A stretch of 41,214 nucleotides of DNA from positions 1-41,214 of the forward strand of contig WQXG01000026.1 of NCBI GenBank assembly GCA_009784975.1, in the 5' to 3' direction. This document shows positions 17,922 through 41,214 of this stretch, piece by piece. Source of the stretch: Treponema sp. (lineage in GTDB: Bacteria > Spirochaetota > Spirochaetia > Treponematales > Breznakiellaceae). The position numbers and the translations under genes are program-made. Below the pieces are notes generated by a model. The model saw only the letters and a program-made list of their open reading frames with translations, did not search any database and was not told the DNA's origin. Position 1 is the stretch's first letter; every line of letters begins with the position of its first letter.

Positions 17922-18220
17922 ATTGGCAAGGACTCACGCAGAGGATTGGCAAGGACTCTCGCAGAGGCGCGGAGGCGCAGAGGACGCGGAGGGAAGAGGG
18001 GAAGAAAGGAAAAGAATTGTGGTATGAAATCTTCCTCATTAATACCTAGAAATATATGATAGCTATCAAAGATTTCGTACTCTCGAGAGACTCTCTCCCA
18101 ACCTCTTCCCCCTCTTCCCTCTTCCCCTCTTCTCTTCCTCCGCGTCCTCCTTCAAACCTTCGGTTTGCAGTCTGCGCCTCTGCGAGAGTCTTTTGCAAGT
18201 CTTTTCCAAGTCTTTTGCCA
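17922..18220. repeat. Full-length palindromic repeat element, copy 1
   Basis: The left arm (17922-18005) reads GGCAAGGACTCTCGCAGAGG and then GCGCAGAGGACGCGGAGGGA. The right arm (about 18084-18220) is its reverse complement, with an extra hairpin module (CAAACCTTCGGTTTG, 18154-18168). Between them an inner inverted pair (GTATGAAATCTT / AAGATTTCGTAC) flanks a core, GAAATATATG...CAAAGATTTCGT (18049-18078), that recurs at 25566-25596. The ends carry tandem GGCAAGGACT- and CAAGTCTTTT-type repeats. It fills the whole gap between rsmD and the next gene. A short ORF inside it is composed of repeat text and is not called. Confidence 0.88.
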
Positions 18221-18265
18221 AAAATGCTTGTTTTTTAAGCAGAATCGACCAATAATTATAGTAAC

Positions 18266-18613
18266 ATGGATAAAAAGACTTTGGAAAAATTTGATGACCA
18301 GAATGCTTTTATTAAGGTATCAACTCCGGCTCCTGTAGACGGGGCGTCTAAAGCAGCTTTAAACCGCAAAGGGAACCAGCTCTATAACGATGGAAAAGTA
18401 GAAGAAGCGCGAAGGGTTTTTATGACAACCGGTTATTCCGACGGGCTTTCCAGAGTTGGAGATTACTACAAATCAAAAGGCAGGCCTCTTGAAGCATTAA
18501 GAATGTACTGGATTGCTCCCGATAAAGCAAAGGCTCAAATACTTATTGAATCGCTTTCCGGGGTATTGAAGAGTTTAATAAAAGAAGATACCATGGAATT
18601 TAAAAATGATTGA
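18266..18613 (+). CDS. Hypothetical TPR-like protein
   Basis: The 115-residue soluble protein has a helical repeat-like middle (NRKGNQLYNDGKVEEARRVF, LSRVGDYYKSKGRPLEALRM) resembling one or two degenerate TPR motifs. It overlaps the next gene, a clear TPR protein, by 8 bases, so the two likely act together. No Shine-Dalgarno site precedes ATG 18266. Similar paired genes exist in treponemes as far as I recall, but I know no function. Confidence 0.75.
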   Translation: MDKKTLEKFDDQNAFIKVSTPAPVDGASKAALNRKGNQLYNDGKVEEARRVFMTTGYSDGLSRVGDYYKSKGRPLEALRMYWIAPDKAKAQILIESLSGVLKSLIKEDTMEFKND

Positions 18614-19703
18614 TGAAAAACTTTCAGGCGAAAAAGACGCTGCAAAAATTACAGAAATTTCAAAAACAGGATATCAGTTATTAAAAGATAACAAAACAAG
18701 CGATGCCATTGACTGTTTTTCAAAGATTTTGCTTCTTGATGAAAACAACAATTATGCTCTTGTAGGAATGGGAGACGCGAGCCGTAAAATCGGATCCATA
18801 AAAGAGGCTGTAAAATATTATCAAAGATGCCTGGAACATCATGCGGGCAACAATTACGCCCTTTTCGGGTTAGCCGACTGCTACAAGGCAATGAACCAGT
18901 ATCAGAAAGCCATTGGTATTTGGGAACAATACCTGCTTCATGATGACAAAAATATTACTGTTCTTACAAGAATCGCTGACGCATACAGAAAAGTCCGCGA
19001 TTTTGCAAAATCCAAAAATACATATCAGAAAGTCCTGGATATGGAAGCCGCTAATCCTTACGCGATTATAGGGCTTGGTCATCTTCATTATGATTTTAAA
19101 CATTATAAAGAAGCGCTTTTTTACTGGGAAAAAATGATGAATACCGATGTTGATATCCGTGTTTTAACTTCAATCGGCAACTGTCACAGAAAATTAAAAA
19201 CCTTCAGCGACGGCATCATTTATTTTGAGACCGCGCTTGCAAGGGATGAACAAAACTTTTATGCCCTCTTTGGGCTTGCGGATTGTTACAGGGGCATGAA
19301 TAAGATGGAAAAATCCCTTGAGTACTGGGCAATTATCCTTGAACAAGATCCAAAAAACAAGATGATTCTTACACGAACAGGCGATGCTTTAAGAAATATA
19401 AATGAATACGAAAAGGCAAAAACTTATTACGAAAAGGCTTTGAATATTGAATTTGATATTTACGCCGTTTTGGGGCTTGCGCTTATTTCCAAAGAACAGA
19501 AAAAATATGATGAAGCCATTACCTCCCTAAAAAAACTAATCCAGCAGGACAATAAAAACTACAGGCTTTATTATGAACTATCCGATTGCTATTTAAAAAA
19601 AGGCGACAAAAAATCATCGATAGAAACTCTTGAAAGTTTCCAAAAACTTGGAATTAAAAATCAAAAAATCTCCGATATGCTGGAAAGCTTAACCAGGACT
19701 TAA
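18606..19703 (+). CDS. TPR-repeat protein
   Basis: The 365-residue protein is almost entirely tetratricopeptide repeats, roughly ten, e.g. NYALVGMGDASRKIGSIKEA, NYALFGLADCYKAMNQYQKA and AYRKVRDFAKSKNTYQKVLD. No signal peptide or catalytic domain is present, so it should be a cytoplasmic protein-protein scaffold. The ATG lies in the end of the preceding gene, and its TAA overlaps the ATG of rlmN (TAATG), forming a tight operon of two TPR-type proteins and a ribosome/tRNA modification enzyme. Confidence 0.88.
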   Translation: MIDEKLSGEKDAAKITEISKTGYQLLKDNKTSDAIDCFSKILLLDENNNYALVGMGDASRKIGSIKEAVKYYQRCLEHHAGNNYALFGLADCYKAMNQYQKAIGIWEQYLLHDDKNITVLTRIADAYRKVRDFAKSKNTYQKVLDMEAANPYAIIGLGHLHYDFKHYKEALFYWEKMMNTDVDIRVLTSIGNCHRKLKTFSDGIIYFETALARDEQNFYALFGLADCYRGMNKMEKSLEYWAIILEQDPKNKMILTRTGDALRNINEYEKAKTYYEKALNIEFDIYAVLGLALISKEQKKYDEAITSLKKLIQQDNKNYRLYYELSDCYLKKGDKKSSIETLESFQKLGIKNQKISDMLESLTRT

Positions 19704-20716
19704 TGAAAAAATCTCTTGCGGGAATTCCTCTTTTAGAACTGGAAACGCTCTTTTCTTCACTTCCCCGCTACAGGGTAAAACAAATTTATAAATGGATAAT
19801 CCGCGGCGTCGGCTCCTTTGATCAAATGACAGATATTCCCTCTTCCCTGCAAAAAGAATTAAATGAACAATATTGCGTTTTTTCAAACGCCGTATCTTCC
19901 TGTTACGAAGACCCGGATGGCGCGAAAAAAATAATTATCACTTTAAAAGACGGCGCTAAAATAGAGGCTGTGCTTTTAAGCGATGCAAAAAAACGATTAA
20001 CAGCCTGCATTTCTACGCAGGTTGGCTGCCCCTGCGCCTGCGTCTTCTGCAAAACAGGCTCAATGGGATTCAAACGCAATCTTGAACATACGGAAATAAC
20101 GGAACAATTCCTTCACCTTAATTCTTCCGGCATAGATAATATCGTCGTAATGGGCATGGGCGAGCCGCTTTTAAACCTTGCCGCCTTAAAAAAAGCAATC
20201 GAATACCTAAACGACAAATCCGGTTTAAATATATCAAGGCGGCGCATTACTGTTTCTACCTGCGGAATTAACGAAGGTCTTTTTGACATTGCGCAAAATC
20301 TGCCGTTTGCCAAACTCGCGCTTTCACTTACAACCGCAGATGAGCCTCTTCGCCAAAAACTTATGCCTGTAACAAGGACAAACCCTCTTAACAAAGTGAA
20401 AGAAGCGCTTTTACTTTTCCAGCGTAACGGAGGAGGACGCGTAACCCTTGAAGTGCCTCTTTTGGGCGGCATTAACACGCGCGAAAAAGACGCAAAATCC
20501 ATCGCAAACTTCGCGAAAGGGCTTGATACTGTAGTAAATATTATTCCCTGGAATCCCGTCTCAGGGCTCCTGTTTGAAGATACCCCCATCCGCGAGTGCG
20601 GCAAAAAAGAAATAATAGATTATATTTCCTTACTGGAAAGTTACAACCTAAAAGTAACAAAACGCCTCCACAAAGGCAGAAAAGCAACAGCCGCCTGCGG
20701 CCAACTAGGAACTTAA
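19703..20716 (+). CDS. rlmN: Dual-specificity 23S rRNA/tRNA adenine-C2 methyltransferase RlmN
   Basis: The 337-residue radical-SAM enzyme has the cluster motif CxxxCxxC in GCPCACVFCKTGSMGF, the family text VVMGMGEPLLN and TVSTCGI, and the C-terminal catalytic cysteine in TAACGQL. It methylates A2503 of 23S rRNA and A37 of some tRNAs using the methyl-cysteine mechanism. Length is normal. The start overlaps the TPR gene stop by one base. A half-copy of the dispersed repeat begins within 10 bases of its stop. Confidence 0.95.
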   Translation: MKKSLAGIPLLELETLFSSLPRYRVKQIYKWIIRGVGSFDQMTDIPSSLQKELNEQYCVFSNAVSSCYEDPDGAKKIIITLKDGAKIEAVLLSDAKKRLTACISTQVGCPCACVFCKTGSMGFKRNLEHTEITEQFLHLNSSGIDNIVVMGMGEPLLNLAALKKAIEYLNDKSGLNISRRRITVSTCGINEGLFDIAQNLPFAKLALSLTTADEPLRQKLMPVTRTNPLNKVKEALLLFQRNGGGRVTLEVPLLGGINTREKDAKSIANFAKGLDTVVNIIPWNPVSGLLFEDTPIRECGKKEIIDYISLLESYNLKVTKRLHKGRKATAACGQLGT

Positions 20717-20720
20717 CTTA

Positions 20721-20797
20721 TTGGCAATCTTCCCCCCCTCCTCTTCTTCCTCCGCGTCCTCTGCGCCTCTGCGCCTCTGCGAGAGTCTTGGCAAATA
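20721..20797 (-). repeat. Half copy of the dispersed repeat (pyrimidine strand on +)
   Basis: The segment reads TTGGCAATCTTCCCCCCCTC, then TCCTCCGCGTCCTCTGCGCC, tandem TCTGCGCC units and GAGAGTCTTGGCAAAT. It is the reverse complement of the purine-rich arm seen at 17940-18000. TTGGCAA occurs at both ends. It occupies the 83-bp gap between the convergent rlmN and DUF445 genes and could serve as their shared transcript end. Confidence 0.85.
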
Positions 20798-20799
20798 TA

Positions 20800-21759
20800 T
20801 CATCTGAGCAGGTAGGTAAATGTTGCCTGGAATAGACCGATAAAGAAACCCAGTATTCCGCCGAAGATGTGTATCCATTTGAATTGATCCGACATTACAT
20901 CCAGAATTATTCTTTCTACCCTTTCCATGTCAAGGGAATCAATTCTGTCTGTAACAAGAGCTTTTATATTTATTGTAGCAAGAATATTTTCTATCTGTGA
21001 ATCGGCAGCCGTGACTAATTTTTCAAAAAGATACGTGTCCAGCTTTTTTTTGTAATCTTCGTCTATTTCCAGCATTTCGCGGAGTGTTTTGCTTTTATCA
21101 GATACCATGTTTCCTATAGCTTTAGACGCTGTATCAATAAGAGTATTTTTTACATTGGTCTCGTTTAACAGGTTTTCAAGGCTGAGGCAAAGATCATCTA
21201 TAATTTCCGGCATTTTTTCTTCCAGTGTTTGATCGTACTGGCCGGCAGAAATAAAAAAACGCTGAAGAGAACTTAACTTTAAGATAATAGCGCGGAGAAT
21301 AATACGGCCTTTTGATTCAATCTGTCTGCGGATATCATCGCGTCGTATAAAATCCATAACAGAATTGCAGAAAACCGGATATACTTTTTCTATCGTACAG
21401 GGAATTCTGTCTTTTAAATAGTTTTCAATGTTTTCTGATAATTGTCCCGGAGTTTTATCCAGAATATTCGCGGTAAAATATGAGATAGACTGTAATATTT
21501 TTTCCCGAACCTCATCCAGCATAAGGCGGCGGCGTAAAATATCAGGCGTTAAAAGCTCTCGTTCTACCATCGCGCCGATACTAACTGCCAGTTTTTTACG
21601 CTGGCGCGGGAGAATACCCGGCGTAAAGGGAAGTCTTATCCCCAAAACACGCACTTCCCTAAGCGGGCGGAACAGCATTTTTATCGCTATAACATTTGTA
21701 GTGTATGCGATAATGGCTCCCGCGATGGGGGGAACTATAAAAAGCAATAGCGTATTCAC
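20800..21759 (-). CDS. DUF445-family membrane protein
   Basis: The 319-residue protein has a hydrophobic N-terminus (LLFIVPPIAGAIIAYTTNVI), the DUF445 signature AIKMLFRPL...PFTPGILPRQRKKLA, long amphipathic helices in the middle, and a C-terminal membrane segment (FGGILGFFIGLFQATFTYLL). The family (YheB-like) is membrane-anchored with unknown biochemistry. The start is GTG 21759, overlapping the stop of the upstream lipoprotein (GTGA), so the two are co-translated. The gene ends 3 bases from a repeat copy. Confidence 0.88.
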   Translation of the reverse strand: MNTLLLFIVPPIAGAIIAYTTNVIAIKMLFRPLREVRVLGIRLPFTPGILPRQRKKLAVSIGAMVERELLTPDILRRRLMLDEVREKILQSISYFTANILDKTPGQLSENIENYLKDRIPCTIEKVYPVFCNSVMDFIRRDDIRRQIESKGRIILRAIILKLSSLQRFFISAGQYDQTLEEKMPEIIDDLCLSLENLLNETNVKNTLIDTASKAIGNMVSDKSKTLREMLEIDEDYKKKLDTYLFEKLVTAADSQIENILATINIKALVTDRIDSLDMERVERIILDVMSDQFKWIHIFGGILGFFIGLFQATFTYLLR

Positions 21760-22157
21760 TTGGGCATTGACTCCGATGCTGTTTTAGCCTGGCTTTCATT
21801 GCTGTAAATATCAACAAATTCTTCCTTTAGCCAGCCTGACCAGGCGCTCTGCGCATTGGACAAATTCCCGTCTGTAAGTATCCATGTAACAAACTCATTT
21901 CTGGTTCTGATTGTCTGCCTCTTAATAATGCGCACCAGCGACCCGCGCCTCAAATACCCAAGAGATGGGCTGTCTTCACTCGGCTCTGCGCAGATGTGGG
22001 TAAAAGAAGCATTTATAACCCCATAACCTATGTAATCTCTGGATAAGGGGGAAGTAACGGGCGGAATTACAGAGAAATCTTCTTTTTTAGCACTGCATGT
22101 ACACAGCAAAAAAAGACATAAAATAACGGCTAATTGACTTGATATACCTTTTAACAT
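21756..22157 (-). CDS. Lipoprotein with an SH3-like segment
   Basis: The 133-residue protein has a spirochaete-type lipoprotein signal with Cys21 (FLLCTC). A later segment (INASFTHICAEPSEDSPSLG, GSLVRIIKRQTIR) resembles bacterial SH3 domains, which often bind cell wall. It is the first gene of a two-gene unit with the DUF445 protein. Only 12 bases separate its ATG from the ATG of the divergent omptin-like gene, so its promoter must lie within that gene or overlap its start. Confidence 0.75.
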   Translation of the reverse strand: MLKGISSQLAVILCLFLLCTCSAKKEDFSVIPPVTSPLSRDYIGYGVINASFTHICAEPSEDSPSLGYLRRGSLVRIIKRQTIRTRNEFVTWILTDGNLSNAQSAWSGWLKEEFVDIYSNESQAKTASESMPK

Positions 22158-22169
22158 TATTATCTTCTT

Positions 22170-23156
22170 ATGAAAAATATAGCTATTCTTTCGGCTTTTG
22201 TCATCATGTTATTTTTATTTTCGGCAATAACACCGGCTTTCAGTCAGCATAATCAGCAATTTGCCAGAAGTTACGGATTTTCTGTCGGAGCGCAAACGGG
22301 GTTTGTTTACGGACAAGCCGGGGAATACGTCTATCCTACCAATACTTTGGCAGACCTTTTAAGCGAACTTTTATGGGATATGAAACCGGTTTTTTACTGG
22401 GGGATCGCTCTTGATTTTGGGCTAATAGATTTTATGGAAAAACCGGGTTTTTTTGCCAGCTTATCTTTTAAATCCGGGATAGCAGGGGATTCCGGCAAGA
22501 TGGAAGACAGAGACTGGAAGTCAATTTTAAATACAGATCTAACCAATTATTCAGAGCATATAAACAGAACCCGCGAATTTTTCTGGCTGGACGCGGCAGC
22601 CGGAGCTTCCATACCTGTCAGACATTATTTTTATATAAAACCATTTTTAAGTTTTTCCTGGATGCGTTTTGCGTTTACAGCGCGGGACGGTTTTTATCAA
22701 TACGCGACTGAAGTTATAAAAGGCATATATCTCCCAATTGAAGATGCTCCAAAAACACCCGTTCAGGGCGAAGTAGTAAAATACGAACAGGACTGGATTA
22801 TTTTGGCGCCGGGTTTTAAAATCGGAATGGATTTTTTATCTTTTATTTCTGTAGATTTATCTTTTCAAATAAGCCCGTTTGCCTTTTGTATTGCACGGGA
22901 TGATCATCTTATAACACAAACTGTTTTTTTGGATTATACAGGCTGGGGGCTTTTTCTGGAACCGCGTGTAAACCTTACATTCAAATGGGATTCATTTTCT
23001 ATATCTTTGGAAGCAGCTTACAGATTTATTTCCAAAACGACAGGTTATACACATATGAGGGAATCTCCATGGCACTCCTATGTACTTTCTGCGAACGCTT
23101 CAGGAGCAAGTCTTTCAATCTTTGACGCGCGTCTTATCGCAAGACTAAGGTTTTAA
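22170..23156 (+). CDS. Omptin-like outer-membrane protease
   Basis: The 328-residue protein has a signal peptide (cleavage after about 25, AFS-Q) and a beta-barrel pattern ending in aromatic RLRF. Landmarks of omptins are visible: SELLWDMKP (65-73), MEDRDW with Asp113/Asp115 in place of OmpT Asp83/Asp85, RFAFTARDGFYQYAT (166-180), and RDDH with Asp244/His246 in place of OmpT Asp210/His212. The family cleaves peptides at basic residues from the outer surface. Retained catalytic residues argue for activity, but the assignment comes from motif comparison, not a search. It is monocistronic, with a 12-base divergent gap to the lipoprotein gene. Confidence 0.75.
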   Translation: MKNIAILSAFVIMLFLFSAITPAFSQHNQQFARSYGFSVGAQTGFVYGQAGEYVYPTNTLADLLSELLWDMKPVFYWGIALDFGLIDFMEKPGFFASLSFKSGIAGDSGKMEDRDWKSILNTDLTNYSEHINRTREFFWLDAAAGASIPVRHYFYIKPFLSFSWMRFAFTARDGFYQYATEVIKGIYLPIEDAPKTPVQGEVVKYEQDWIILAPGFKIGMDFLSFISVDLSFQISPFAFCIARDDHLITQTVFLDYTGWGLFLEPRVNLTFKWDSFSISLEAAYRFISKTTGYTHMRESPWHSYVLSANASGASLSIFDARLIARLRF

Positions 23157-23163
23157 AGAAACT

Positions 23164-23197
23164 TGTTTCCTAGAGAAACATGTTTCCTAGAGAAACA
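23164..23197. repeat. Tandem 17-bp direct repeat
   Basis: Two exact adjacent copies of TGTTTCCTAGAGAAACA (23164-23180, 23181-23197). Each is a near-palindrome (GTTTC/GAAAC). The second copy contains the stop codon of the minus-strand membrane protein (23187-23189). It lies between convergent genes and may fold as a short transcript end. Confidence 0.85.
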
Positions 23198-23579
23198 GCG
23201 CGTTTGGAAGAAGAAAATGTAGAAGGGCAACAACCATCAATCCTATTCCGATTGGTTTTCTAAAAGTCATAAGGCTTGTTCCAAGACGATCCAGTTCCCC
23301 CGATTTTTCAGAAGTATTCTGGCGGTAAATACCAAATATCAGCATAAGACCTGCAATTATCCCGGCTGCCGCGGGAATAAGATCTCCCAAAATGGGAATT
23401 CCCTTCTCGGCAGGGGAAAGGAGCTTTAAAACCCCCGTCACTATACATATAATACCGAGCACAAGATAAAAAACAGGGTTGTTGATGGAAAATCTGGCAT
23501 TTTCACGATCCCCGCCGGCAAACAATGCATACCCAGCCACGCCATTACACAATACTGATAAAAAATACAATTGTATCAT
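23187..23579 (-). CDS. Small membrane protein, four predicted helices
   Basis: The 130-residue hydrophobic protein has about four membrane segments (MIQLYFLSVLCNGVAGYALF, NPVFYLVLGIICIVTGVLKL, LGDLIPAAAGIIAGLMLIFG, IGIGLMVVALLHFLLP). I chose ATG 23579; an in-frame TTG at 23615 would add 12 polar residues. No family is recognised. Its stop lies in a tandem repeat. It follows another membrane protein gene by 55 bases on the same strand and may be the last gene of that operon. Confidence 0.72.
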   Translation of the reverse strand: MIQLYFLSVLCNGVAGYALFAGGDRENARFSINNPVFYLVLGIICIVTGVLKLLSPAEKGIPILGDLIPAAAGIIAGLMLIFGIYRQNTSEKSGELDRLGTSLMTFRKPIGIGLMVVALLHFLLPNALFL

Positions 23580-23634
23580 AACTACATAAATAACACTAAA
23601 TTCTGATTTAGTCAATATATTTAATGTAATTTTA

Positions 23635-24213
23635 TTAAGGTTTAAACCGCATTTGCAAAGTATTTTTTTCGTTTTGCAATAACATTACAAGTTCTTCAGC
23701 GTCAAAAGGGACTACAAAACGGTATATTTCTTCGGTCTCATAAGTGAAAAAAACACGATGTGTAAAGACGGGATACTGATCTTCGCCTGATTTTACAATC
23801 GGCGTAACCGCTATATCTACAGAACCGGAATAAGCGCCTGTGTTTTTCGCGGTTTTTTTAAGAACTACTATTGTTGTACCTTCAAAACCGGCGGCTGTAA
23901 CATCAATTCTGTTACCTTCCAGCGTATAAGATGTATCAAAATACCCCGTTATTGACAATACCAGTATTCCGGCACACATAACAATAATTAGAATAAAAAG
24001 CATTCTTCTGGGTTTATCAGCAAGCAATGGGCCCAAAAGGCTGAATTGATTTTTTTTCTGTTCTTTATAAAGATTTTTTACTGAATCCGGAGCGTTTTCC
24101 AGGCGGCGTTCACGGTTATAATAAAAATGAAGTTTTTCTTCATTTTCTTTTTTATCAAGATGATTTTTATCATCTAGGTTGCTTAAATTATATTTAGCAT
24201 TCGGTCTTTCCAT
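23635..24213 (-). CDS. Hypothetical single-pass membrane protein
   Basis: The 192-residue protein has a charged cytoplasmic N-terminus (KNHLDKKENEEKLHFYYNRE), one membrane helix (about 73-93; MLFILIIVMCAGILVLSITG) and an external beta-rich domain (IDVTAAGFEGTTIVVLKKTA, HRVFFTYETEEIYRFVVPF). ATG 24213 overlaps the TAA of the upstream lipoprotein gene by one base, which fixes the start; a longer frame would add 12 residues. No known family is recognised. Confidence 0.75.
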   Translation of the reverse strand: MERPNAKYNLSNLDDKNHLDKKENEEKLHFYYNRERRLENAPDSVKNLYKEQKKNQFSLLGPLLADKPRRMLFILIIVMCAGILVLSITGYFDTSYTLEGNRIDVTAAGFEGTTIVVLKKTAKNTGAYSGSVDIAVTPIVKSGEDQYPVFTHRVFFTYETEEIYRFVVPFDAEELVMLLQNEKNTLQMRFKP

Positions 24214-25409
24214 TATTTTATTTCTCCGATAAACCTGTCTGTCCGCCACCAGACCATCTTTACGCTAAAAGTATCCGCCAGCATAGCGCACAGGATCCCT
24301 TCCGCAGAAAGATAAAAATCATTGAATATCTGCTCTTCATTGGAAAACCGGATACTGCCTCTTCTCTGCTCGCGTGTAAATAAATCGATATAAATTAAAG
24401 TATAGCCGTTTTCTACCGGGAAATAAAAAAGAGTTTTTCCCGAACGCGCTGTGCCAAGGAGGGAGTAAAACACCCTGATATTTGACGGGCGTCCATTTTC
24501 GATTATTTCGTAAAGAGGAATTTCTACAGAGTCTGTGTAAGTGCCGTCTTCTACATTTAATGTCCAGATACAGGAACCAATGGGTTCACTTCCGGTTCGG
24601 GTATTTGTAGATTGATCAAAGGTGTCACGGCTGTAATCTACTTTTATATATAACCTTCTTGAATCAACCGAAGAAGTTATGCTGTCTACAACGGCAAAGG
24701 CATTCGGCCAGTCAGGAAGCGCGGGCACCTGATTTGCTGATATTTTTACCAGATAAAGAAGCTGTCCTTGCGGGCTGAACCAGTATATTTCCCATCCGTC
24801 AGGGATACGGCAAACTACGGAGAGTTCATCCCTTATCGAAGAAGAAAGTCCGACAATGCGCGGAAACGGGCTTCCGCCAATTCCATCCTTACCCAGATAA
24901 TTGATAAAGCGCCCGTCCTGATCAAAATGCAGGATTATCCCGTCATGCAATGCCCTTGTCTCCGTGTCTATTTTTTGCTGCTGGATGGGGAGCCTGTCTT
25001 CCACAAAAATGTGCCTTCTGGAATCCACGGTTATCCAGCCGGGCTCTTCAAGGGGATGGGTAAATGCCCAGCGGGTTGCCGCTTCATCTGCAGAAATGTT
25101 TGTTTTTAAAGTAAGAGGCACAGGATTGGTTTCCTCGTTATATATCATAAACAATAAATCGCCGTAAGAATTGTACCTGACAATTTTTCCGCTGTTTCCA
25201 TCGGATATATAAAAAAGCCCGTCCCGCATTGTAAAACCGGTTCTTTTTATTCCCCTGTTTCCGTCAAGTTTATACAGGGCAATCTGATCTTCCATGAGAC
25301 CTATTTCCAGCGTAAACAGTTCTTCTCTGTCTACGGAACCTGCCGTGTTATTTCTGCACGCGCCAAAGAGCAAAAACGGCAAAATTAAAAGTAATAAACA
25401 CTGCTTCAT
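24213..25409 (-). CDS. Lipoprotein with a beta-propeller/NHL-like body
   Basis: The 398-residue protein starts at ATG 25409, because the lipoprotein signal (LLLLILPFLLFGAC, Cys18) follows directly; a longer frame upstream would place polar residues first. The body contains repeats of the type seen in NHL/propeller proteins (RDGLFYISDGNSGKIVRYNS, GWITVDSRRHIFVEDRL, HFDQDGRFINYLGKDGIG). It is probably a membrane-anchored binding protein of treponemal type. It is the first gene of the operon with the two downstream membrane proteins. A palindromic repeat fills the upstream gap, and a TTGACA at that repeat's edge (25447-25442, minus) may supply a -35 box. Confidence 0.8.
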   Translation of the reverse strand: MKQCLLLLILPFLLFGACRNNTAGSVDREELFTLEIGLMEDQIALYKLDGNRGIKRTGFTMRDGLFYISDGNSGKIVRYNSYGDLLFMIYNEETNPVPLTLKTNISADEAATRWAFTHPLEEPGWITVDSRRHIFVEDRLPIQQQKIDTETRALHDGIILHFDQDGRFINYLGKDGIGGSPFPRIVGLSSSIRDELSVVCRIPDGWEIYWFSPQGQLLYLVKISANQVPALPDWPNAFAVVDSITSSVDSRRLYIKVDYSRDTFDQSTNTRTGSEPIGSCIWTLNVEDGTYTDSVEIPLYEIIENGRPSNIRVFYSLLGTARSGKTLFYFPVENGYTLIYIDLFTREQRRGSIRFSNEEQIFNDFYLSAEGILCAMLADTFSVKMVWWRTDRFIGEIK

Positions 25410-25440
25410 ACTATCTCTAAATTCCACTTTTTCTGCCTGT

Positions 25441-25678
25441 TTGTCAAGACTTGCAAGATTTGCAAAGATTTGCAAAGACTTGCAAAGACTCTCGCGGAGG
25501 CGCAGAGACGCAGAGGACGCGGAGGAAGAGGAGGAGGATGTCTTTTTAAAAAATATCGAAGCTTTGAAATATATGGGATTAAAGCAAAGATTTCGTTCTT
25601 TGTTCTTTGCTCTTTGCTCTTTGCTCTTTCCCTTCTTCCCTCTGCGTCCTCTTCGAGAGTCTTAGCTAAATCTTCCTA
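25441..25678. repeat. Full-length palindromic repeat element, copy 2
   Basis: The left arm has four tandem units like ATTTGCAAAG (25456-25490), then ACTCTCGCGGAGGCGCAGAG and GACGCGGAGGAAGAGGAGG. The right arm (about 25590-25678) has tandem CTCTTTG units, then CTGCGTCCTCTTCGAGAGTC and TTAGCTAAATCTTCC. The inner pair CGAAGCTTTG/CAAAGATTTCG flanks the core GAAATATATG...CAAAGATTTCGT (25566-25596) shared with 18049-18078. The right end overlaps the 3' end of trmB and supplies its stop. Confidence 0.88.
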
Positions 25679-39323: not shown

Positions 39324-39545
39324 TTACCTGCCCCTGGAAACCGATTTTGAAAGACTGTCCCCAACCAGTTTACCATACCAATCATAAGAAAAAGGCTCTT
39401 TACCCCTGACAGTGGTTTTCATTTGGTTTTCCAGGTTATCCTTACAGGCTTCACATACACTGTACTGTGCATAATAAAACAATGTACGGTTAGTGAACGG
39501 ATCTTCTACTTTTTTTCTACAAACATCGCAAGTAATGGTTTGCAT
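39324..39545 (-). CDS. Small zinc-ribbon protein
   Basis: The 73-residue protein has two CxxC knuckles: Cys5/Cys8 (TCDVCRKK) and Cys31/Cys34 (SVCEACKD), with DPFTNRTLFYYAQYS between. A perfect AGGAGG site and a TCGACA-17-TATACT promoter precede it, and a terminator follows, so it is a single-gene transcript. Metal binding is predicted; possible nucleic-acid binding is inference. It resembles small treponemal zinc-ribbon proteins. Confidence 0.85.
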   Translation of the reverse strand: MQTITCDVCRKKVEDPFTNRTLFYYAQYSVCEACKDNLENQMKTTVRGKEPFSYDWYGKLVGDSLSKSVSRGR

Positions 39546-39575
39546 TTAGGACCTCCTAAGTCTAATATTAAAGTA

Positions 39576-39604
39576 AGTATACAAAATAAAAGTATTTATG
39601 TCGA
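39576..39604 (-). promoter_or_regulatory. Promoter of the zinc-ribbon gene
   Basis: On the minus strand TCGACA (39604-39599), 17 nt and TATACT (39581-39576) give a start near 39569, about 24 bases before ATG 39545 and upstream of AGGAGG. It lies in the 66-bp gap shared with the divergent neuB-like gene. Confidence 0.65.
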
Positions 39605-39611
39605 GTACCAA

Positions 39612-40937
39612 ATGATAGAAATTGAAAATATTTACAGTCCCCAAAACCCGCTTATTATTGCCGAATTGGGTACTTCCCACAATTGCGACATCGTTAAATG
39701 CAAAGAAATGATTGACGCAGCCGCAAAAGCCGGCGCAAATTGCGTTAAATTCCAGATTGTCTATGCCGATGAAATCCTGCACCCCAAAACAGGGGTAGTT
39801 TCCCTGCCCGGCGGGAATATCAGGCTCTACGACAGGTTTAAATCACTGGAAGCTCCGCCGGATTTTTACGCGGAAATCAAAGAATACACGGAATCTCTGG
39901 GACTTTTGTTCCTTTGTACCCCATTTGGTCTTAAAAGCGCTGCAGTTTTAAAGAATTTACAGCCTAAACTGGTAAAAATAGCCTCCCCTGAACTGAATTT
40001 CACCGGTTTACTGGAAGAAATTGCAAGTTGGGGTGTGCCAATTCTTCTTTCTACAGGGGTTTCCACCCTTGGAGATATAGAGAAAGCTCTGAGGACTTTG
40101 CAGGGATTTGGCAAGGACTCTCGCGGAGACGCTGAGGCGCAGAGGACGCGGAGGGAAGAAGGGGAAAAGGAAGAGTTTGCTAAGAGCTCTCGCAGAGACG
40201 CGGGAAGTTCCCTCTCTTCCTCTTCCTCTTCCTCTTCTTCCTCTTCTTCTTCCTCTTCTTCTTCTTCCTCTTCTTCTTCTTCCTCTTCTTCCTCCTCTTC
40301 TTCCTCCGCGTCCTCCGCGCCTCTGCGCCTCCGCGAGATCTCTTGCCCAACTCTCTTACATTGTGTCACTGCCTATCCGGCGCCGGAGGTTGATTATAAT
40401 TTGAGGGTGTTGGCTAATTTGTCGGCTATTTTTGGGGTTTCTGTTGGGGTAAGTGATCATAGCGGCGATCCCGAGCTTGTTCCCGCTTTGGCTGTTTGTA
40501 TGGGAGCGTCTGTCGTGGAAAAACATTTTTGTCTTTCCAAAACTGACCCTGGTCTTGATGACCCTATTGCTTTGCCGCCAGATGATTTTGCAAAGATGGT
40601 AAGAGCTGTGCAGATTGCCGCAAGAAATGGTCCGCAAGAGACTATCGCTCACTACAGTAAATTAAGGGGTGCCGCTTTAATCGAACAGATTTTAGGGAAC
40701 GGCGTAAAAGTTCTTGCTTCTTCCGAGATTGCCAATTATGGTTTAACCAACCGCTCCATCCATGCGCTGCGTGATATTAAAGCAGGCGAGGTTTTAAAAC
40801 GCGGCGATTATGCGGTTCTTAGAACAGAAAAAATTCTGCGTCCCGGACTTGAACCTTGCTGGGAAAAAGTTATCGAAGGCAGAGTTGCCAGAAACTTTAT
40901 TCCCGCAGGTGAAGGGATACGGTTTGAGGATGTTTGA
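39612..40937 (+). CDS. neuB: Sialic-acid synthase (NeuB/PseI/LegI) family protein with an in-frame repeat insertion
   Basis: The 441-residue protein has an N-terminal NeuB TIM barrel (IAELGTSHNCDIVKCKEMID, GANCVKFQIVYADEI, LFLCTPFGLKSA, KIASPELNF, VPILLSTGVSTLGD, LLHCVTAYPAPEVDYNLRVL, GVSDHSGDPELVPALAVCMG) and a C-terminal SAF domain (about 360-441). The family condenses phosphoenolpyruvate with an amino sugar. The exact sugar is not readable; flagellin or surface glycosylation is a likely use. Residues about 165-246, including 31 serines at 202-232, are encoded by a dispersed repeat and separate the helix ALRTL from the strand LLHC. Without them the protein is about 359 residues, the family's usual size. 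The frame is intact. I chose ATG 39612; a longer frame upstream is not family-like. Confidence 0.9.
   Translation: MIEIENIYSPQNPLIIAELGTSHNCDIVKCKEMIDAAAKAGANCVKFQIVYADEILHPKTGVVSLPGGNIRLYDRFKSLEAPPDFYAEIKEYTESLGLLFLCTPFGLKSAAVLKNLQPKLVKIASPELNFTGLLEEIASWGVPILLSTGVSTLGDIEKALRTLQGFGKDSRGDAEAQRTRREEGEKEEFAKSSRRDAGSSLSSSSSSSSSSSSSSSSSSSSSSSSSSSSSSSASSAPLRLREISCPTLLHCVTAYPAPEVDYNLRVLANLSAIFGVSVGVSDHSGDPELVPALAVCMGASVVEKHFCLSKTDPGLDDPIALPPDDFAKMVRAVQIAARNGPQETIAHYSKLRGAALIEQILGNGVKVLASSEIANYGLTNRSIHALRDIKAGEVLKRGDYAVLRTEKILRPGLEPCWEKVIEGRVARNFIPAGEGIRFEDV
40105..40350. repeat. Palindromic repeat inserted in the neuB-like gene
   Basis: The left end reads ATTTGGCAAGGACTCTCGCG and then GAGGCGCAGAGGACGCGGAG. 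The right end is the reverse complement of the same text (TCCTCCGCGTCCTCCGCGCC to CGCGAGATCTCTTGCCCAAC). A second left-type unit (GCTAAGAGCTCTCGCAGAGA) starts near 40180. A pure pyrimidine tract of TCT and TCC codons covers 40209-40307. The length (about 246 bp, 82 codons) keeps the frame. Confidence 0.92.
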
Positions 40938-40969: not shown

Positions 40970-41182
40970 AAGTTTGCGGAGACGCTGGGGAAGAGTTTTT
41001 TACCACGAACCATACTAACGGACACGAACGGGGGAAGATTAGCCAAGACTCACACAAACCGCAAACCGAAGGTTTGAAGAAGGGCACAAAGGCACAGAGG
41101 GAAGAAGGGGGAAGATTTGCCAAGACTCACGCGGAGACGCGGGGGCGCAGAGGACGCGGAGGGAAGAAGGGGGGAAGAGGGG
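40970..41182 (+). repeat. Composite array of repeat modules after the neuB-like gene
   Basis: Modules in order: a short A piece (GCGGAGACGCTGGGGAAGAG); the CACGAAC module (41001-41037); a C module with the hairpin CAAACCGAAGGTTTG and GGGCACAAAGGCACAGAGGG (to about 41108); and an A module (GATTTGCCAAGACTCACGCG, then GGCGCAGAGGACGCGGAGGG). Shorter copies elsewhere match single modules, so the family is modular. A hairpin, ACTTGT/ACAAGT (40951-40973), lies just before it. No gene is seen here. Confidence 0.85.
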
Positions 41183-41214
41183 TTGGGAATTTAATGGACC
41201 CTTTAAATTCCCAA
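41183..41214. repeat. Perfect 12-bp inverted repeat at the window edge
   Basis: TTGGGAATTTAA (41183-41194) and TTAAATTCCCAA (41203-41214) are perfectly complementary around an 8-base loop, TGGACCCT. The second arm coincides with the last base of the window, so its outer context is unknown. Confidence 0.8.

Follow-up and report, generated by a model that had tools for sequence, protein, structure and literature searches.

In the 41,214-nucleotide contig WQXG01000026.1 (henceforth referred to as the window) of Treponema sp. assembly GCA_009784975.1, a member of the termite-gut treponemes, we find copies of a palindromic repeat family that occurs in two settings, between genes and in frame within the genes of conserved enzymes. 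At the in-frame sites, relatives carry either a short loop or a different repeat, and the type of repeat tends to be largely a property of the genome (henceforth referred to as its ‘dialect’). We consider it probable that this is a high-copy, non-autonomous palindromic family with arms open in all six reading frames, whose copies spread and of which selection leaves those that lie between genes and those that are tolerated in frame.

The first-pass annotation of the window had singled out two elements with inverted arms, at 17922-18220 (element 1) and 25441-25678 (element 2), and had taken them for copies of one family and not for chance resemblance. The positions and the arms are as it described, and the genome (G000; 2.6 Mb in 73 contigs, of which the stretches around known copies were read) bears out the kinship: element 1 returned 206 BLAST matches, with as many as 3 mismatches allowed the arm 22-mer GACTCTCGCAGAGGCGCAGAGG had 87 matches and its reversed control 0, and the 25-mer CGCAGAGGCGCAGAGGACGCGGAGG had 104 matches (0 for the control). 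The reversed control for the pattern CACAGAGG is invalid, since the reversed pattern resembles a family member. Reading of the regions around the matches gave ~80 distinct places. A script sorted these roughly by type, and classed 15 as core-bearing, 21 as having inverted arms and 44 as single-armed; its core test looked near the arms only, so that some core copies were put in the other classes.

In complete copies, a dyad-symmetric core of ~77 nt lies between a left arm and its reverse complement, the right arm. The left arm can be written (ATTGGCAAGGACT)CTCGCAGAGGCGCAGAGGACGCGGAG, often with direct repeats in front, and the arms are built of tandem CGCAGAGG units, with a variable number of 8-bp and ~23-bp units and no fixed ends. 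The complete core (...GAAATCTTAACCTTAATCCCTAGAAATATATGATAGCTATCAAAGATTTCTAGGGATTAAGGTTAAGATTTC...) is present in at least 24 genome copies, and its ends, GAAATCTT...AAGATTTC, are nearly invariant among the aligned complete copies. In element 1, a two-armed intergenic copy on the forward strand that folds far more stably than its shuffles (z = -8.4), the left arm (ATTGGCAAGGACTCTCGCAGAGGCGCGGAGGCGCAGAGGACGCGGAGG..., 17941-17999) contains the unit that recurs at the ~80 genome places. It is followed by a core remnant (18021-18080) that, compared with complete copies, has lost ~28 nt by an internal deletion between two AAGATTTC repeats, CAAAGATTTCGT being the resulting join and the middle, ATAGCTAT, the palindrome centre. 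The right arm (18137-18220, reverse strand) is interrupted by a nested mini-hairpin, ACTGCAAACCGAAGGTTTGAAGG (18149-18172, reverse strand; 45 genome matches, control 0). In element 2, also two-armed and on the forward strand, the right half of the core alone remains and the middle, GGATTAAAG, is right-half sequence; its folding compared to shuffles is moderate (z = -3.4). Both elements contain the letters GAAATATATG and CAAAGATTTCGT, and the first-pass annotation had seen here a common core with a variable middle of 8-9 bases. This is not one homologous unit: the two are differently damaged remnants of the ~77-nt core, and the apparent sharing is in part due to palindrome symmetry. Nor could the short core GCAAAGATTTCGT be retained as a family signature, as it gave 6 genome matches at 1 mismatch compared to 4 for the control. 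The family is defined by its arms, which the annotation had not recognised as the defining part, and not by the 30-bp core that it had proposed.

The core-bearing copies are intergenic and no reading frame spans them; counted over both strands, their core consensus has 16 stop triplets. The arm holds none and is open in all six frames, and at least 13 conserved genes of the same genome also harbour, in frame, coreless copies that consist of arms only; this habitat had been overlooked. Within the window this is the case for element 3 (40110-40350, forward strand), a previously unnoticed coreless two-armed copy that lies in frame within a NeuB-family synthase gene (39423-40937, forward strand; 504 aa, Pfam NeuB and SAF) and encodes residues 231-309. 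Insert hosts with Pfam support on both sides of or around the insert are NeuB, IspE (GHMP kinase), MutL, TrmD, FolC (Mur ligase), HemW (radical SAM), DHFR, an Eco57I-type methylase and PurL; those recognised by eye only are a dihydrouridine synthase, a GH95-like enzyme (two inserts), TruB (two inserts) and a DUF115/flagellar-motility-like protein. One of the two in-frame inserts in truB (L325) is of another dialect, CACRRAGG-like, and purL (L108) likewise has two in-frame inserts, one of them CACGAACC-like. Other copies occupy signal-peptide or terminal regions in three WD40 proteins, a GH3-like protein and a FecCD-type permease; the three WD40 genes (L070, L072 and L096) are paralogous and carry the element in the N-terminal signal-peptide region, with varying nesting. 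All three forward frames are used by the in-frame copies, resulting in the unrelated peptides GKDSRRGAEAQRTRR, SRRRRGAEDAEE and TLAEAQRRRGRGG, and this speaks against any one peptide having been selected for. Since the in-frame copies of this genome were found by a search for open frames, their count is biased, whereas the comparison of orthologous loops is unbiased.

For that comparison, 40 same-genus genomes were searched with NeuB, TrmD and IspE, and 29, 30 and 30 loops, respectively, were recovered; none of the 89 breaks the frame or contains a stop. The NeuB loop usually has 12-23 residues elsewhere and 91 in the genome under study, where element 3 adds 79; the TrmD loop has 16-28 residues in many species and 70 here; and the IspE loop has 35-78 residues elsewhere and 147 here. 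At each site, the loop of the other species is either short or filled by a different repeat, likewise in frame. Residues 231-309 of NeuB are missing from same-genus orthologues and from solved structures, and homologues of NeuB and TrmD with solved structures align as two blocks that flank the insert without including it; by our reading of these structure alignments, both inserts are in a helix-strand connection. In these respects the family behaves as Rickettsia palindromic elements (RPE) do: its palindromic repeats are both intergenic and in frame within conserved genes, and the insert is absent from orthologues with the frame kept.

The repeats that fill these loops in relatives are of several types. 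GGGGACT palindromes occupy the NeuB and TrmD loops of genome G035, and GGGGAGT is found in the TrmD loop of G061 and the NeuB loop of G009; CACRRAGG occurs in loops of G020, G026 and G008, CGCAAAGR in G016 and G006, CACGAACC in G008 and G016, CGCRGAGG in G034 and TTCGACAGGCTCAG in G012, where the palindrome TTCGACAGGCTCAG...CTGAGCCTGTCGAA is in frame in the TrmD loop (L273). Several loops fold strongly compared to shuffles (for example z = -6.4 for neuB of G035 and -9.4 for trmD of G061). The same type was found across the tested genes in G000 (3/3), G034 (2/2), G035 (2/2), G027 (3/3) and G020 (3/3), and G008 and G016 were mixed. Genome-wide, the genome under study has 104 CGCAGAGG matches and no GGGGACT, G035 has 315 GGGGACT matches, G019 has 483 CACRRAGG matches and G026 is rich in CGCAGAGG, GGGGACT and CACRRAGG, with 63 CGCAGAGG-arm matches. 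In the closest pair available, G016 and G020, the neuB repeat has the same place and length and is 63% identical, compared to 83-84% in the flanks; in this one pair, therefore, the repeat seems to have been replaced faster than its surroundings changed.

Inside the arms, the 23-nt hairpin ACYGCAAACCGAAGGTTTGAAGG (window 18149-18172 and 41061-41079; L331-L360) has 45 genome matches (control 0). In the 42 contexts read, it nearly always interrupts one of two successive arm units at CGCRG^AGG, and the uninterrupted arms are paralogous empty sites for it. A few copies are in another context and are followed by GGAATCTTTGCCGTAT. Small dispersed repeats (SDR) of Nostoc punctiforme, reportedly described by Elhai and colleagues in 2008, are said to be 21-27-nt hairpins nested in tandem repeats. 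Going by that description, ACYGCAAACCGAAGGTTTGAAGG, a short hairpin set in tandem-unit arms that also exist uninterrupted, may be of a similar kind; it comes from another phylum. Because the hairpin is nested at one point of the unit and all the repeat types have a hairpin form, our preferred guess, held with moderate confidence, is that structured single strands or RNA are copied in. Hairpin-forming pieces would be copied elsewhere in the genome, probably by way of a single strand or an RNA that host or other enzymes handle, and not by a cut-and-paste transposase. Copies that break genes would be removed by selection, and the survivors would either lie between genes or be open and in frame in surface loops and linkers, where the folded enzyme tolerates them. 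At an occupied site, units may expand by slippage and the resident dialect may overwrite them, so that a repeat would be kept and its sequence changed. The inserted residues are predicted to be translated and, by analogy with the RPE in Rickettsia guanylate kinase, would be mostly neutral.

Several observations weigh against this account of a spreading, selectively tolerated family. RNAalifold detected no convincing covariation at any base pair of the core in the aligned copies, and the core is therefore conserved as sequence and not demonstrably as folded RNA; no Rfam family matched within the window either, and on these two grounds a conserved RNA fold was rejected. As many as 11% of letter shuffles are equally open in six frames, and the openness of the arm is therefore not unusual for its base composition; an adaptive origin of this openness was rejected as not significant, and the arm's compatibility with coding may be luck and not adaptation. 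Among the relatives, some inserted loops are short, non-palindromic or unremarkable in their folding, and the repeat classes are motif counts with a low threshold; those with only two units (for example neuB of G001, G010 and G062) may be due to chance. Movement is deduced from the comparison between species, in which the ends of copies are placed approximately and a short duplication may have escaped notice, and the production and activity of the insert-bearing proteins are predicted from sequence.

The first-pass annotation had likened the elements to a miniature inverted-repeat transposable element (MITE), an idea to be given up if the genome held no further copies or relatives no empty sites. 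Both were found, the copies at ~80 places and the empty sites for NeuB, TrmD and IspE, and the likeness survives by this rule: the family is dispersed, non-autonomous, palindromic and present in many copies, with empty sites in relatives. If these were classical MITEs, the arms would serve as terminal inverted repeats on which a DDE-type transposase, present in the genome now or formerly, acts in trans; the size of 150-300 bp, the inverted arms, the copy number and the empty sites all speak for this. However, fixed terminal inverted repeats are lacking, as the ends vary in unit number and 44 of the 80 places have a single arm. The target-site duplications that the annotation had suggested looking for did not appear in 23 two-armed copies with uncertain ends, where the longest word shared by the flanks averaged 5.65 bp compared to 5.59 bp in mismatched flanks. 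No transposase linked to the family was found, Y1_Tnp being the one mobilising family searched for and DDE families having had no systematic search. Furthermore, unrelated repeat families occupy the same sites in other species, which would call for several transposases with one choice of site, and we regard the classical MITE as unlikely. Local growth, in which short seeds in loops and spacers expand by slippage and become palindromes by template switching without any dispersal, would account for the tandem units, the polypurine and poly-serine tracts, the direct repeats in the arms and the change of unit at a fixed site. Yet the same 22-mer arms and a 77-nt core shared by at least 24 copies cannot arise locally at unrelated places, and the nested 23-nt hairpin recurs in at least 42 contexts; as an explanation of the whole, local growth thus seems slightly less likely again.

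The remaining explanations have much lower probabilities. Repetitive extragenic palindromes (REP), 20-40 bp long with a GTAG or CGTC tag, and their REPIN forms are moved by the RAYT (Y1 HUH) transposase, and palindromes in spacers together with one Y1_Tnp gene in the genome under study (C18:41784) are in keeping with such elements. The units here are instead 8-bp tandem repeats, the arm-rich G026 (63 matches) has no Y1_Tnp match, albeit in a genome 67% complete, and the family is missing from 22 of the 40 same-genus genomes. RAYT mobilisation was rejected as Y1_Tnp does not track copy number, and no RAYT accounts for that number, making this explanation very improbable. It is harder still to regard the inserts as selected protein features, that is, flexible charged or serine-rich linkers with DNA similarity as a by-product: although they are in loops and linkers and encode charged or serine-rich peptides, one DNA is read in three forward frames to give unrelated peptides and is also found between genes with a stop-rich core. 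Least probable of all is an artefact of assembly or binning of metagenome-derived genomes. Many copies are indeed at contig ends, where some contigs are possibly chimeric, but in-frame inserts recur in the same loops of many independently assembled genomes, each in its own dialect, and interior copies are flanked by intact genes on both sides.

Outside its own genome the arm is rare in the phylum, with any match in 12 of 393 sampled genomes and, the own genome apart, at most 6 matches in each. The exact 25-mer CGCAGAGGCGCAGAGGACGCGGAGG, in contrast to a chance expectation by simple base counts of well under one match in 257 Gb, is present in 83 stretches of GTDB genomes from ~ten phyla: its carriers are Sphingomonas and relatives, Nostocales, Chloroflexota, Planctomycetota, Verrucomicrobia, Acidobacteriota, Myxococcales, Desulfobacteraceae, beta- and gammaproteobacteria and Treponema. 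Several copies in low-GC Nostocales are in frame in long reading frames, where they encode NRRGAEDAE or PQRRRGRGG; at high GC, where chance alone gives long frames, such cases carry no information. The letters ahead of the 25-nt arm unit are clade-specific (..gaac in cyanobacteria, ..ttcg in sphingomonads and ..ttcac in others; L140-L222). It is conceivable, though we hold this as a tentative idea only, that one widespread and unnamed process propagates tandem-unit palindromes (CGCAGAGG, CACRRAGG, CACGAACC, GGGGANT and similar) across many phyla, with genome dialects overwriting each other at shared sites, and that in termite-gut treponemes it is a major source of in-frame insertions, the same enzyme loops being refilled by different types.

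Two more features of the window had escaped the first-pass annotation. A single-arm copy lies between genes at 20740-20797 (reverse strand), and the contig ends in a composite array (40997-41214, forward strand) of CACGAACGG-type, CACAAAGG-type and CGCAGAGG-type units, in which a mini-hairpin is nested (41061-41079). A second palindrome, GGGAATTTAATNGWCCCTTTAAATTCCC (window 41187-41214; L079, L084, L091, L093, L097, L109 and L116), recurs beside arms near contig ends and is possibly another repeat family.

Palindromic elements of Rickettsia and Wolbachia (RPE and WPE) are 100-150 bp long, lie between genes and in frame in conserved metabolic genes, are tolerated by the enzymes and move by a mechanism that is unknown (PMC2229807, PMC10969869). 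They are the closest to the Treponema palindromes in behaviour, these being likewise intergenic and in frame in conserved genes. Unlike them, the Treponema family has arms of 8-bp tandem units, shares its loops with unrelated repeat types in sister species, is read in three forward frames and belongs to another phylum (Spirochaetes); its sequence appears to be different, and we claim no descent. In Neisseria, the Correia or NEMIS (Neisseria miniature insertion sequence) repeats have an open 107-bp form that is fused in genes and a stop-bearing 155-bp form that is almost only intergenic (PMC2229807), two forms that recall the coreless and core-bearing copies described here; however, their sequence is unrelated and they have target-site duplications and TA ends (PMC2229807), neither of which was detected in the Treponema family. 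The Nostoc heptamers GGGGA(C/T)T, of the cyanobacterial class of short tandemly repeated repetitive (STRR) sequences (Rehm et al.), are mostly intergenic and form quadruplexes (PMC4692102). Their GGGGACT/GGGGATT unit is the dialect of G035 and its relatives, there inside genes, whereas the genome under study has none of GGGGACT and uses CGCAGAGG. PARCEL (palindromic amphipathic repeat coding elements) are translated palindromic DNA with a patchy distribution over phyla (PMC2996958), and the Treponema palindromes are also translatable and patchily spread over phyla; PARCEL are, however, tandem 25-residue domains in surface or orphan proteins, in contrast to single inserts in housekeeping enzymes. 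Literature searches, with most subscription papers outside their scope, returned nothing relevant on palindromic repeats or MITEs in Treponema, and searches of paper text for the repeat sequences themselves also returned nothing relevant.

Discussion of palindromes that code for protein has, to our knowledge, centred on Rickettsia and Wolbachia. The Treponema family seems to be an independent instance from a different phylum. For each gene as many as ~30 orthologous loops are available, and the empty, filled and replaced sites in NeuB, TrmD and IspE make gain, loss and overwriting traceable. An identical 25-mer in ~ten phyla needs either a shared mechanism or frequent exchange to explain it. 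Overall, the results suggest a route by which selfish repeats may lengthen enzymes, apparently without breaking them.

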